Translations under genes and position numbers: made by a program
From: Streptomyces sp. NRRL S-87
GTDB lineage: Bacteria; Actinomycetota; Actinomycetes; Streptomycetales; Streptomycetaceae
Length of the DNA: 64,000 nt
Reading direction: 5' to 3'
NCBI RefSeq assembly: GCF_000719335.1
Contig: NZ_JOGB01000032.1
Coordinates: 1-64,000, forward strand
In this document: positions 8,320 to 60,634 of the stretch, in pieces
How the letters are laid out: every line of letters begins with the position of its first letter
Numbering within the stretch: position 1 is the first letter of the stretch
Notes under the pieces: model-generated
What the model was told of the DNA's origin: nothing
Databases searched by the model: none
The model's input: only the letters and a program-made list of their open reading frames with translations

Positions 8320-9126
8320 ATGCGCACCGCCATTCGCCGTACCGCCGCGCGCCGTAGCGCCGTTCGTCGCACCGCCGTCGCCGTCACCGTGGCCTCGCTT
8401 GCCCTGGTCGTCACGGCCTGCGGTTCCTCCGGCACGTCGACCGACGAGAAGGCCGAGGCCGGCACCGGCAAGGCGGCGGCCAGCAGCGCGCCGGCCGAGC
8501 CGGCGGCCCGTCCGCTGTCCGCCGCCGAGCTGGAGCAGCTCGCCGTCGCGCAGGCCGACCTGCCGGGTTACAAGGTCGAGGACAAGCTGAAGAACCCGCC
8601 GGCGGAGGCGGGCAAGGCCGTCTCGGACAAGCCGGCCTGCCAGCCGTACGCGGACGCGATCGCGGGCGTCATCGGGAAGCCCGCCGCCAAGGCGCTCCGC
8701 TCGGCCGTGGCCCTGCCCAAGGACGCCGGCACGGCGCAGACGCCGGAGCAGAAGGCCCTGGCAGGCCTGAACGCCCTCAAGTCGCCCGCGACCCGCGTGA
8801 TCCTCGCTTCGTACGAGGGGGACAAGGCGGCCGAGCACGTACTGACCCTGAAGAACTCGGGCGCCGACTGCATGCAGGGCTTCACCGTCACCCAGGACGG
8901 CGAGAAGACCAAGATCAAGTCGATGACGCCGATGACGCTGGACGCCGGTGACGAGGACTCGTCCTGGTCCTTCGTCATGGACATGGACGGCCAGCCCGCC
9001 GAGTTCAACATCGCCCTGATGAGCAAGGGCACCACGCTGGCCAGCTTCTACACCTTCAGCCTCGGTGGCTCGGTCAAGGAGCTGCCGGAGCCGATCATCG
9101 ACGCGCAGGAGAAGAAGCTCGCCTGA
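8320..9126 (+). CDS. Secreted lipoprotein of unknown function
   Basis: The product has 268 residues. A very basic N-region and a hydrophobic stretch end in the lipobox LVVTAC, so Cys near residue 38 should be lipidated and the protein held on the outer face of the membrane. The mature part begins with a Gly/Ala/Ser-rich linker. A soluble domain of about 190 residues follows, with Cys pairs that could form disulfides. I do not recognise the domain. It stands alone between a divergent coaA and a downstream hairpin. Confidence 0.8.
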   Translation: MRTAIRRTAARRSAVRRTAVAVTVASLALVVTACGSSGTSTDEKAEAGTGKAAASSAPAEPAARPLSAAELEQLAVAQADLPGYKVEDKLKNPPAEAGKAVSDKPACQPYADAIAGVIGKPAAKALRSAVALPKDAGTAQTPEQKALAGLNALKSPATRVILASYEGDKAAEHVLTLKNSGADCMQGFTVTQDGEKTKIKSMTPMTLDAGDEDSSWSFVMDMDGQPAEFNIALMSKGTTLASFYTFSLGGSVKELPEPIIDAQEKKLA

Positions 9127-58160: not shown

Positions 58161-58393
58161 TCCTTTGGGGTGACCGGGCTGCTGTCCCCTGCCGACCGGT
58201 CACGCGCTGGGGCGAGGTCCCACGACGTACGCTCCACGGGCCGTACGTCTCATCGCTCCAGCGGAGCCACGCGTGGTGTGTGCGGGCCCGCGCCTGGCTG
58301 GCGCGGACTATCCACACCAACGAAGCCCCACGGGGCCGGTCACGGTCCGGACGGGTGACAAACGCACGCCCGCACGGCGGTCGCCGGCAGCGG

Positions 58394-58717
58394 TCAGACC
58401 CGGCCGCGGCACAGCTCCAGCAGCGTCATCGCCAGCGCGGTGCCGGGCTTGCCGAGGGCCTCGTTGTAGTGCGCGAGGACCTCCATCTCGCGCGAGAGGT
58501 TCACGCGGCGCCCGCCCGAGGTGATCCGGGCGTCCTGGATCACGGCCGAGACGGCCATCCGTTCCTGGATCAGGCCGATGATCCGGTCGTCGAGGGCGTC
58601 GATCCGCTCGCGGGCGCCGCCGATCAGCTCGGCCGCGTCGGCGGTGCGGGCACCGGTGGTCTCGGCGGCGGTCCCGGCGGTGCGGGCGGCGGGCGCGGTG
58701 GCGGCGGTGGTGGTCAC
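58394..58717 (-). CDS. Chorismate mutase (AroQ class)
   Basis: This all-helical AroQ-type mutase of 107 residues converts chorismate to prephenate, the branch to Phe and Tyr. The core begins at about residue 32 (GARERIDALDDRIIGLIQER) and continues with AVSAVIQDARI, RREMEV-like NLSREMEVLAHY and a final helix ending CRGRV. The first 30 residues are an Ala/Thr-rich extension. It is divergent from guaA. Its leader carries a candidate aromatic attenuator. Confidence 0.9.
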   Translation of the reverse strand: MTTTAATAPAARTAGTAAETTGARTADAAELIGGARERIDALDDRIIGLIQERMAVSAVIQDARITSGGRRVNLSREMEVLAHYNEALGKPGTALAMTLLELCRGRV

Positions 58718-58759
58718 GGGCTTCTCCTGTCGGTGGTGGCCGACGACCCGTACGACGAC

Positions 58760-58793
58760 AGAGCGCCCCGGGCCTGTCGGCCGGGGGCGCTCT
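58760..58793 (-). terminator. Attenuator-type hairpin in the chorismate mutase leader
   Basis: AGAGCGCCCC (58760-58769) pairs perfectly with 58784-58793; an inner GGCC/GGCC pair (58771-58774, 58779-58782) extends the stem. On the minus strand it lies between the leader peptide and the mutase gene, about 30 bases after the leader stop. There is no U-tract, which is common in Streptomyces terminators. Confidence 0.65.
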
Positions 58794-58824
58794 GGGTGGT
58801 CTGTTCAGTGGCTCGGAGCGAGCA

Positions 58825-58893
58825 TCACGAGGACCCATGGCGACCGGACCGACCGGTGCCATAGGTAAAGAGGAAGCTCAGCTGCTTGCGCAC
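58825..58893 (-). CDS. Candidate leader peptide of chorismate mutase (22 residues)
   Basis: A GTG-initiated ORF of 22 codons encodes MRKQLSFLFTYG at its start. It has two Phe and one Tyr within five residues, the end products of the pathway opened by chorismate mutase. The GTG lies seven bases after the predicted -10, so the transcript would be leaderless and no ribosome binding site is needed. The hairpin at 58760-58793 follows. It is too short to judge by coding statistics. Confidence 0.5.
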   Translation of the reverse strand: MRKQLSFLFTYGTGRSGRHGSS

Positions 58894-58900
58894 GGCACGG

Positions 58901-58930
58901 AATCTAGCCGTCCCGCGGGCCCATCACCAA
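58901..58930 (-). promoter_or_regulatory. Promoter of the chorismate mutase leader transcript
   Basis: On the minus strand TTGGTG (58930-58925) and TAGATT (58906-58901) are 18 bases apart. The expected start is at or next to the leader GTG at 58893. Confidence 0.6.
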
Positions 58931-58985
58931 CCGGGTTCGGATGGTGAGACAGGACCGGCCGGGGCCCGGGTTCGGATGGTGAGAC
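58931..58985. repeat. Two perfect 20-bp direct repeats upstream of guaA
   Basis: CCGGGTTCGGATGGTGAGAC occurs at 58931-58950 and 58966-58985, 35 bp apart. They lie between the chorismate mutase promoter and a guaA -10-like TAGAAT at 59009-59014. Confidence 0.85.
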
Positions 58986-59053
58986 GAAGACGGGCGTGCG
59001 AGCGCCGTTAGAATCGACAAAACAACACCCTCTTTCCCGCCGGAAGGCCCGCC

Positions 59054-60634
59054 GTGCCAGAAGCACCCTCCGCCGCCCCGGACGTCGTCCTCGTTGTCGA
59101 CTTCGGCGCGCAGTACGCCCAGCTCATCGCCCGCCGCGTCCGTGAGGCCCGGGTCTACAGCGAGATCGTGCCGAGCACGATGCCCGTGGCCGAGATGCTG
59201 GCCAAGAACCCCAAGGCGATCATCCTCTCCGGCGGCCCGTCCTCCGTGTACGAGGAGGGTGCCCCCACGATCGACCGCGCCCTGTTCGAGGCCGGCGTCC
59301 CCGTCTTCGGCATGTGCTACGGCTTCCAGCTGATGGCCACCACCCTGGGCGGCACGGTCGACAACACCGGTGCGCGCGAGTACGGCCGTACCCCGCTGAC
59401 CGTCACCAGGACCGGCTCCACCCTCTTCGAGGGCACCCCCGAGCACCAGTCGGTGTGGATGTCGCACGGCGACGCCTGCTCCGCCGCTCCCGAGGGCTTC
59501 ACCGTGACCGCCTCCACCAACGTGGTGCCGGTCGCCGCCTTCGAGAACGACGAGAAGAAGCTGTACGGCGTGCAGTACCACCCCGAGGTGATGCACTCCA
59601 CGCACGGCCAGCAGATCCTCGAGCACTTCCTCTACCGGGGCGCGGGCCTGAAGCCCGACTGGACCACCGGCAACGTCATCGAGGAGCAGATCGCCGCCAT
59701 CCGCGCGCAGGTCGGCGACAAGCGCGCCATCTGCGGCCTGTCCGGCGGCGTGGACTCCGCCGTGGCCGCGGCCCTCGTGCAGAAGGCCATCGGTGACCAG
59801 CTGACCTGCGTGTACGTCGACCACGGCCTGATGCGCAAGGGCGAGACCGAGCAGGTCGAGAAGGACTTCGTCGCCGCGACCGGCGTCAAGCTGAAGGTCG
59901 TCGACGCCCAGGAGCGCTTCCTGACCGCCCTCGCCGGGGTCTCCGACCCCGAGGAGAAGCGGAAGATCATCGGTCGCGAGTTCATCCGCGTCTTCGAGCA
60001 GGCCCAGGCCGAGATCATCGCCGAGGCCCCCGACGACCAGCCCGTCGAGTTCCTGGTCCAGGGCACGCTGTACCCGGACATCGTCGAGTCCGGCGGCGGC
60101 ACCGGCACCGCGAACATCAAGTCGCACCACAACGTCGGCGGCCTGCCCGAGGACCTGGAGTTCAAGCTCGTCGAGCCGCTGCGCCAGCTGTTCAAGGACG
60201 AGGTCCGCATGGTCGGCCAGGACCTCGGCCTCCCCGAGGAGATCGTCCAGCGCCAGCCCTTCCCGGGCCCGGGCCTGGGCATCCGCATCGTCGGCGAGGT
60301 CACCAAGGAGCGCCTGGACCTGCTGCGCGAGGCCGACGCCATCGCCCGCCACGAGCTGACCGCGGCCGGCCTGGACCGCGAGATCTGGCAGTGCCCGGTC
60401 GTGCTGCTCGCCGACGTCCGCAGCGTGGGCGTGCAGGGCGACGGCCGCACCTACGGCCACCCGATCGTGCTGCGCCCGGTCTCCTCCGAGGACGCCATGA
60501 CGGCCGACTGGACCCGCATGCCGTACGAGGTGCTGGCCCGCATCTCGACCCGGATCACCAACGAGGTGCCGGACGTGAACCGCGTGGTCCTGGACTGCAC
60601 CAGCAAGCCGCCGGGCACCATCGAGTGGGAGTAG
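59054..60634 (+). CDS. guaA: GMP synthase (glutamine-hydrolysing)
   Basis: This 526-residue enzyme converts XMP to GMP. The N-terminal class I glutaminase carries the nucleophile in [10 protein letters not shown] and a His/Glu pair in QYHPEV. The ATP-pyrophosphatase domain has the P-loop [15 protein letters not shown]. The C-terminal dimerisation domain ends [10 protein letters not shown]. It begins with GTG. It completes the guanine branch with guaB in this window. Confidence 0.97.

Follow-up and report, generated by a model that had tools for sequence, protein, structure and literature searches.

A leaderless Phe/Tyr leader peptide as probable attenuator of a chorismate mutase gene in Streptomyces and other Actinomycetes

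A chorismate mutase (CM) gene of Streptomyces sp. NRRL S-87 is preceded by a short open reading frame with clustered Phe and Tyr codons and by a GC-rich terminator-like hairpin, and is likely to be controlled by a ribosome-mediated transcription attenuator that would sense the charging of tRNA-Phe and tRNA-Tyr through a leader peptide encoded on a leaderless mRNA. The elements lie within the window, by which the whole analysed stretch of 64,000 nucleotides is meant, and are arranged as follows:

58930-58901, minus strand: promoter-like sequence, a weak match to the consensus, with -35-like TTGGTG (58930-58925), an 18-nt spacer and -10-like TAGATT (58906-58901).
58893-58825, minus strand: putatively leaderless leader ORF with GTG at 58893-58891, 22 codons (MRKQLSFLFTYGTGRSGRHGSS) and TGA at 58827-58825.
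58875-58861, minus strand: sensor codons TTC CTC TTT ACC TAT, encoding F7 L8 F9 T10 Y11.
58866-58833, minus strand: hairpin 1:2 with the Tyr codon in its 5' arm, from the fold of the window copy.
58854-58779, minus strand: predicted antiterminator 2:3, composed of segment 2 (58854-58833) and segment 3 (58797-58779).
58830-58805, minus strand: small capping hairpin from the fold, containing the leader stop codon and lying within the antiterminator loop.
58794-58759, minus strand: terminator-like hairpin 3:4 with the tail UCGUCGUAC, a U-tract being almost absent.
58728-58724, minus strand: Shine-Dalgarno (SD)-like AGGAG of the CM gene.
58717-58394, minus strand: CM gene of the AroQ type (PF01817), 107 aa, the presumed regulated target.

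Much of this layout had been put forward in the initial annotation and stands on closer inspection. The promoter TTGGTG-18-TAGATT could be re-read base for base at 58930-58901, the GTG ORF starts 7 nt after the -10 box and encodes 22 residues with FLFTY at positions 7-11, the GC hairpin that had been placed some 30 bases past the stop begins 30 nt behind the TGA, and the downstream gene is indeed a chorismate mutase, its product matching Pfam CM_2 (PF01817) with an E value of 1.3e-07. Hairpin 3:4 consists of 11 outer pairs, one mismatch and four further pairs, and the GTG start codon of CM at 58717 follows 41 nt 3' of it. A putatively leaderless Phe/Tyr ORF, hairpin 1:2, a possible pairing 2:3, hairpin 3:4 and CM 41 nt behind make up the anatomy of classical attenuation. 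Chorismate mutase is the first enzyme devoted to the synthesis of Phe and Tyr. At 59054 begins, on the plus strand, a gene identified by its Pfam domains as guaA, encoding GMP synthase; guaA and CM are thus transcribed divergently from a shared promoter region. The stretch that separates guaA from the leader promoter contains GTCTCACCATCCGAA twice (58936-58950 and 58971-58985, minus strand), and with one mismatch allowed no further occurrence exists in the genome of 8.15 Mb. Of the 110 same-genus copies, 45 have a similar motif (up to two mismatches) ahead of the leader, the usual distance to its start being about 55 nt. This repeat may serve as an operator, either for the leader or for guaA.

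How well is the leaderless start supported? A scan of 58650-59060 returned no sigma-70-type promoter. Among 295 unique leaders the -10 box is mainly CATACT (149) or CACACT (68), and 179 of them have a TTG spaced like a -35 element (16-19 nt), which is the case for 1.3% of random window positions. The start codon, ATG in 200 and GTG in 95 of these leaders, is located 6 nt (188), 7 nt (101) or 8 nt (6) from the -10-like box, in a count for which a box 5-8 nt from the start codon was itself a search criterion. This spacing, on which the leaderless layout originally proposed is based, is kept across relatives, and with transcription starting at the usual distance a start codon 6-8 nt past the box would leave no room for a SD sequence. 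The window contains 14 leaderless-type ORFs of 12-35 codons, two of which have at least three Phe or Tyr codons within five codons; the second of these besides the leader, at 9019-9126 on the plus strand, looks like part of a coding region. That the ORF in front of CM arose as a chance reading is removed by its conservation in relatives.

A 301-base query had matches in 37 of 61 genomes, of which 36, counting the own genome, belong to the genus, and a 147-base query matched 145 of 150 same-genus genomes, again including the own genome and with a few partial or off-target matches such as L062. The leader is found in 118 of the loci L001-L119, only L062 being without it, and these yield 110 distinct copies as detected by a finder that permits up to three mismatches in a 13-base core, or fewer if the downstream arm is also changed. 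A comparison across Streptomyces had been proposed at the outset, and the loss of the FLFTY codons or of the hairpin in relatives that was then named as evidence against the reading was not observed: UUU and UAU are invariant (110/110 each) and hairpin 3:4 covaries, as detailed below. Both sensor codons remain constant while neighbouring codons vary; at the second codon ahead of TTT, 99 copies have TTC, four TAC and seven another codon. Moreover, both are rare in the window, where 39 ORFs picked by length and GC3 and not by annotation contain 357 Phe codons, five of them TTT, and 339 Tyr codons, ten of them TAT. In the further loci read, described below, an ACC-to-TTT change gives FFFY in L198, and the Tyr codon is gone in two copies (L192 and L199). 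In diverged leaders of the same genus (L061, L063, L067, L075, L222, L227 and L228) Trp is found beside Phe, as in FWFTYG, QWFTYG and WFSYG, and these leaders might therefore sense Trp as well.

Is it the RNA or the peptide that is conserved? The peptide cores F-x-F-T-Y-G and RRFFYGYR are kept over long distances, which would suit an arrest peptide, the nascent chain of which stalls the ribosome upon sensing of a ligand, such as an aromatic metabolite, and not of tRNA charging. Such a reading appears very improbable, as the residues between the aromatic ones vary (T, S, F; V, L, A, W, S) and as the frame past FTYG can shift, which is the case in four of the 110 copies (L011, L054, L071, L119). 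The nucleotides of these four are nearly unchanged, indicating that the downstream part is held as RNA. In addition, the conserved Gly codon sits in the 1:2 stem, so that RNA pairing can explain its conservation.

The terminator-like hairpin is the best supported of the pairings. In 107 aligned same-genus copies 3:4 is paired in 95.3% of cells, and six of its 15 pairs contain double changes, with 51 such cells compared to 16.2 in shuffles (0/500). The capping hairpin in the relatives is 96.4% paired, with five double-change cells compared to 0.6 in shuffles. The GC stem of 3:4 is outdone by only 4 of 180 shuffles of 60 copies. A second terminator finder reported a hairpin in 298 of 299 cases, a count that says little by itself since the finder is permissive (it reports a hairpin in 156 of 180 shuffles) and errs in some mycobacterial copies (L252). 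A constitutive terminator or a small-RNA gene in front of an independently promoted CM, with the ORF as a by-product, would likewise present a GC hairpin and a short transcript. It would leave unexplained the invariant rare Phe and Tyr codons, the spacing of the start and the linkage to CM, and is hardly credible.

Few U residues follow the 3:4 stem across the copies, as in the window tail UCGUCGUAC, and a scan of 58650-59060 for U-tract terminators yielded none. The missing U-tract is one of the two chief doubts on the attenuation reading, the other one being the mixed outcome of the tests for 2:3 described below. A hairpin of this kind would be compatible with attenuation at the level of translation, whereby stalling on the leader alters access to the ribosome-binding site of CM instead of or besides termination. 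In 52 of 70 copies shuffling of the upstream stretch makes the SD sequence of CM less paired (median unpaired 0.22 in the native context versus 0.36), copies that are related and hence do not constitute independent evidence. Against this alternative speaks the open SD of the window (0.82; more than 0.5 open in only 7 of 110 copies). Furthermore, the pairing that segment 4 could form with the sequence behind the hairpin barely beats shuffles (the median z is 0.12 for the 13 copies of the window clade, -0.65 for 125 and -0.52 for 52 others), and a link from stalling to the SD through segment 4 was rejected for this reason. Control at the level of translation, in place of termination or besides it, is unlikely as the explanation of the leader; according to the folding models, a paired ribosome-binding site of CM in related copies is a possible second layer of control, though the corresponding stretch of the window (58724-58758) has it open.

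Ribosome-mediated attenuation, as suggested by the initial annotation, gains support from folding, which finds an antiterminator and a hairpin 1:2 at the Tyr codon, the comparative support for 2:3 being mixed. Folding models suggest that the leader can adopt three mutually exclusive pairings, 1:2, 2:3 and 3:4, with the regulatory codons in segment 1, each of them predicted for the window copy and for the majority of the folded copies. In the genus alignment 1:2 is paired in 92.8% and 2:3 in 86.4% of cells, and the 2:3 duplex of the window copy has an energy of -25.9 kcal/mol. Column counting over the 107 aligned genus copies yielded no covariation beyond shuffles for 1:2 or 2:3; within the genus their arms are nearly invariant, and bulges displace the register.

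How could the alternatives compete? When the whole leader was folded with no ribosome, 3:4 formed in five of five copies and 1:2 in four of five, and in equilibrium folds with a ribosome at UAU 3:4 persisted in five of five. In RNA extending to the 5' arm of the terminator, 2:3 was predicted with a ribosome at UUU or UAU in nine of the ten copies shown, with differing arms, and already won with no ribosome in seven of ten, the hairpin being misplaced in one of these partial-length folds (L003) and, less harmfully, in three more (L043, L064, L098). Since 3:4 survives the stalled ribosome and 2:3 wins without any ribosome, the switch must rest on the order of folding. Partial-length folds of diverse leaders contained 2:3 in L348, L244 and L176, part of it in L323 and L259 and none in L245, a count from which L252, L243, L241 and L212 were left out as a downstream hairpin had been taken in.

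Comparison to shuffled sequences also gave divided answers. Relative to shuffled segment 3, the 2:3 duplex has a median z of -2.38 in 13 window-clade copies and of -2.22 in the 129 remaining FTYG..CHG copies, of about -1 for the 72 copies that make up three more groups and of -0.66 in 84 RRFFYGYR copies; over 298 copies the mean is -1.45, with 62% below -1. For 1:2, scored by the same script, medians range from -4.21 to -1.76, except for +0.28 in the RRFFYGYR group, a value that came with a badly placed arm boundary. When arms were swapped between seven lineages, segment 3 paired best with its cognate segment 2 in two (the window clade and family f3), the cognate being beaten in five by 0.1-3.2 kcal/mol or more; for 1:2 the cognate arm was best in one of seven, so that the swaps came out largely neutral. 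More uniform is the hairpin at the Tyr codon. The whole set was thinned to less than 80% ungapped identity, and in the 37 class-wide representatives left, folded singly, this hairpin has a mean z of -2.14, with 31 below -1, 36 below 0 and L205 as the weakest (z 0.1). In all 37 the first pair lies -3 to +5 nt from the first base of the Tyr codon. The pairs of this stem differ by lineage; examples are GGCACCGG/CCGGUCGCC for the window copy, GGGUACCG/CGGUGCCC for L252, GGCUACCGG/CCGGUAGCC for L241 and GGGGACCG/CGGUCCCC for L255.

How would such a leader operate? From the sequence we infer the start of transcription, translation of the leader, stalling and the response to starvation in the following manner. 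RNA polymerase would start at the G of the GTG and a 70S ribosome would initiate at the very 5' end of the transcript. With ample Phe-tRNA and Tyr-tRNA the ribosome would reach the UGA and mask segment 2, allowing 3:4 to form and to halt transcription. If either tRNA is short, the ribosome would stall at UUC, UUU or UAU in segment 1 and leave segment 2 free, which according to the predicted pairings could engage segment 3 ahead of the synthesis of segment 4, and the polymerase would enter CM. This antitermination step needs 2:3 to be formed first and to persist. In the absence of translation 1:2 would form first, 3:4 would be possible and expression would be low. The rare, wobble-read UUU and UAU probably sharpen the sensitivity of stalling.

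The leader is linked to one type of chorismate mutase. Of 25 chosen genomes with no, weak or misplaced matches to the element, 15 are without a CM of this type at a cut-off of E <= 1e-15; ten have the gene, with a diverged leader in seven, a contig end in two (L441, L449) and a decayed leader in one (L445). As a control served the best 30 PF01817 matches, mainly other CM genes, 28 of which are without an upstream aromatic short ORF, the remaining two (L265, L266) having short ORFs unlike the leader; 12 of these 30 loci come from the genus of the window and occupy other places than the leader-bearing CM. This control and the absences indicate that the leader is tied to this CM in particular and not to chorismate mutases at large. 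The genome of the window encodes two more CM-like genes (C47:31802-32047, L262, and C44:53506-53742, L288), and neither is preceded by an aromatic leader. Leader copies in front of other genes of the same genome were considered and dismissed, the covariance model giving three matches at E <= 0.1 and, among the matches listed, only the window locus. Genus g27 of the same family was likewise dismissed as a carrier, the weak model matches that were fetched (L203, L204, L217, L218) not lying beside a CM gene. The leader-type CM is found in none of the seven g27 genomes searched (G186, G198, G206, G219, G222, G226, G234), and synthesis of Phe and Tyr in this genus would therefore need another chorismate mutase.

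How far does the arrangement extend beyond the genus? At E <= 0.1, a cut-off that admits weak matches, the covariance model detected the element in 99 of 101 genomes of the family (17 of 17 genera) and in 117 of 119 genomes of the order. Of 90 loci read, 83 contain CM and all 83 have the leader core upstream, including L209, for which the script located no start codon; the seven without CM are L203, L204, L210, L214, L217, L218 and L226. Searches with CM across the class gave matches in 29 of 118 genomes and then in 92 of 246, the latter including weak ones that concern other CM genes. In 22 loci from these searches the script listed leaders in nine, for example MLNAQRRFFYGYRPAVPVV, MSDRRSYFYYGTGSPAAVGRA and MTRSAFFFYGSGRVR, further leaders were recognised by eye in L242, L253, L254 and L256, and neither script nor eye found a leader upstream of CM in L246, L248, L250, L251 and L262; L249 is situated at a contig end, and CM was missed by the query in L255, L259 and L261. 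Altogether 439 loci, many of them overlapping, were collected, 367 of which hold the leader-type CM and 355 of these a leader by a loose criterion (at least two Phe or Tyr within six codons) that picked the wrong ORF in at least L024, L078 and L148, which are still counted. By this criterion 12 of the 367 are without a leader (L192, L246, L248, L249, L250, L251, L254, L262, L279, L286, L294, L319).

A blind scan of the genome collection for DNA encoding RRFFYGYR, in which the context was ignored, gave at least 118 stretches. Among the 118 matches listed, 85 sit 107-268 bp upstream of a CM gene on the same strand, in Mycobacterium, Mycolicibacterium, Mycolicibacter, Rhodococcus, Pseudonocardia, Actinomycetospora and Nakamurella and, for the remainder, in actinobacterial metagenome bins. 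Of the 33 other listed matches 30 come from outside Actinobacteria and one from an unclassified bin (L406); in L341 (Mycobacterium) and L433 (Actinomycetospora) the sequence ends less than 150 bases past the match. All 85 CM-linked matches have TTT as their first Phe codon though the pattern permitted TTC. As judged by sequence, a similar putative leader arrangement precedes CM in other genera, families and orders. We lean, with some reserve, towards the view that one ancestral leaderless attenuator, an RNA family not in Rfam, governs CM and thereby the Phe/Tyr branch in a large part of the class Actinomycetes, with UUU and UAU as tuned sensors, in Streptomyces-like genera as well as in Mycobacterium, Mycolicibacterium, Mycolicibacter, Pseudonocardia, Actinomycetospora, Rhodococcus and Nakamurella.

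Chorismate mutase stands at the branch point between Trp and Phe/Tyr and supplies many aromatic natural products of actinomycetes. If class-wide, the leader switch would be a main control on this branch, and if true it would offer a ready target for strain engineering in Streptomyces. The leader would also constitute a good natural test of whether leaderless initiation sustains fast coupling of ribosome and polymerase, and its invariant rare UUU and UAU provide a testable case for codon choice tuned to sensing. Its interest lies in the breadth, the leaderless start, the rare sensor codons and the position at a metabolic branch point; that it appears widespread over much of the class and is not a Streptomyces curiosity adds to the initial annotation.

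Has such a leader been described before? According to the initial annotation the arrangement is not known to have been described for this locus, in agreement with what Rfam and the searched literature returned. Rfam 15, including the T-box, gave no match up to E 1 in 58300-59200 and up to E 0.1 in eight related loci. No description of a CM leader was found in Rfam or in the available parts of a 2005 actinobacterial survey and of a S. lividans RNA-seq survey, the table of the latter, as far as available, containing eight leader peptides and none for Phe, Tyr or CM (PMC8079986). A full-text search that covered the main texts of mostly open-access papers returned no title or abstract describing it, and the searched passages of eight papers contain no mention of it (PMC4833913, PMC6892785, PMC13236596, PMC4633059, PMC10219788, PMC9094748, PMC11550727, PMC1173090). 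Taken together, the CM leader is real and conserved very strongly, and it is probably an attenuator of a familiar kind that has so far gone undescribed.

Which known systems does it resemble? The pheL leader of E. coli has a ribosome-binding site and is not known to use Tyr codons as sensors. Unlike this SD-dependent start, the window leader begins 7 nt past a -10-like box (6-8 nt in relatives) and would have no room for a SD sequence if transcription starts there. Both have in common a leader peptide in front of a gene with chorismate mutase activity, that of pheL-pheA sensing Phe-tRNA according to the available passages of PMC11802643, and in both stalling would choose between terminator and antiterminator, here as a prediction. 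E. coli pheA encodes a bifunctional CM-prephenate dehydratase, unlike the CM gene of the window. Together with pheL-pheA, the nearest system in function is aroR-aroF of C. glutamicum, an actinobacterial leader with aromatic codons before a gene of the aromatic pathway, with a Phe-Tyr-Phe leader that, in the parts available, is described as responding to Phe limitation, Tyr availability being without effect (PMC11802643, PMC4046766). The aroR leader precedes the DAHP synthase gene aroF, whereas the leader here precedes CM. For mycobacteria, cysteine-responsive leaderless short ORFs were reportedly described by Canestrari in 2020. In the passages available Cys-rich uORFs of mycobacteria are treated in PMC4633059, and the leaderless Cys ORFs are described as translation attenuation in PMC13236596. 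As far as these passages go, they share with the CM leader a leaderless short ORF before amino-acid biosynthesis genes in an actinobacterium and differ in carrying Cys codons instead of Phe and Tyr codons. Changes of codons in the ilvB leader of S. coelicolor were reported to be without effect (PMC1262725), which counts against the attenuation reading. Further parallels are LeuL1/2, TrpL1/2, IlvL, ThrL and MetL of S. lividans, which the available parts of PMC8079986 describe as leaderless leader peptides and several of which have hairpins likewise without a U-run. To the extent that these parts cover them, they concern other amino acids and targets than the CM leader and share with it the leaderless start, a short peptide with regulatory codons and, in several cases, a hairpin without a U-run.
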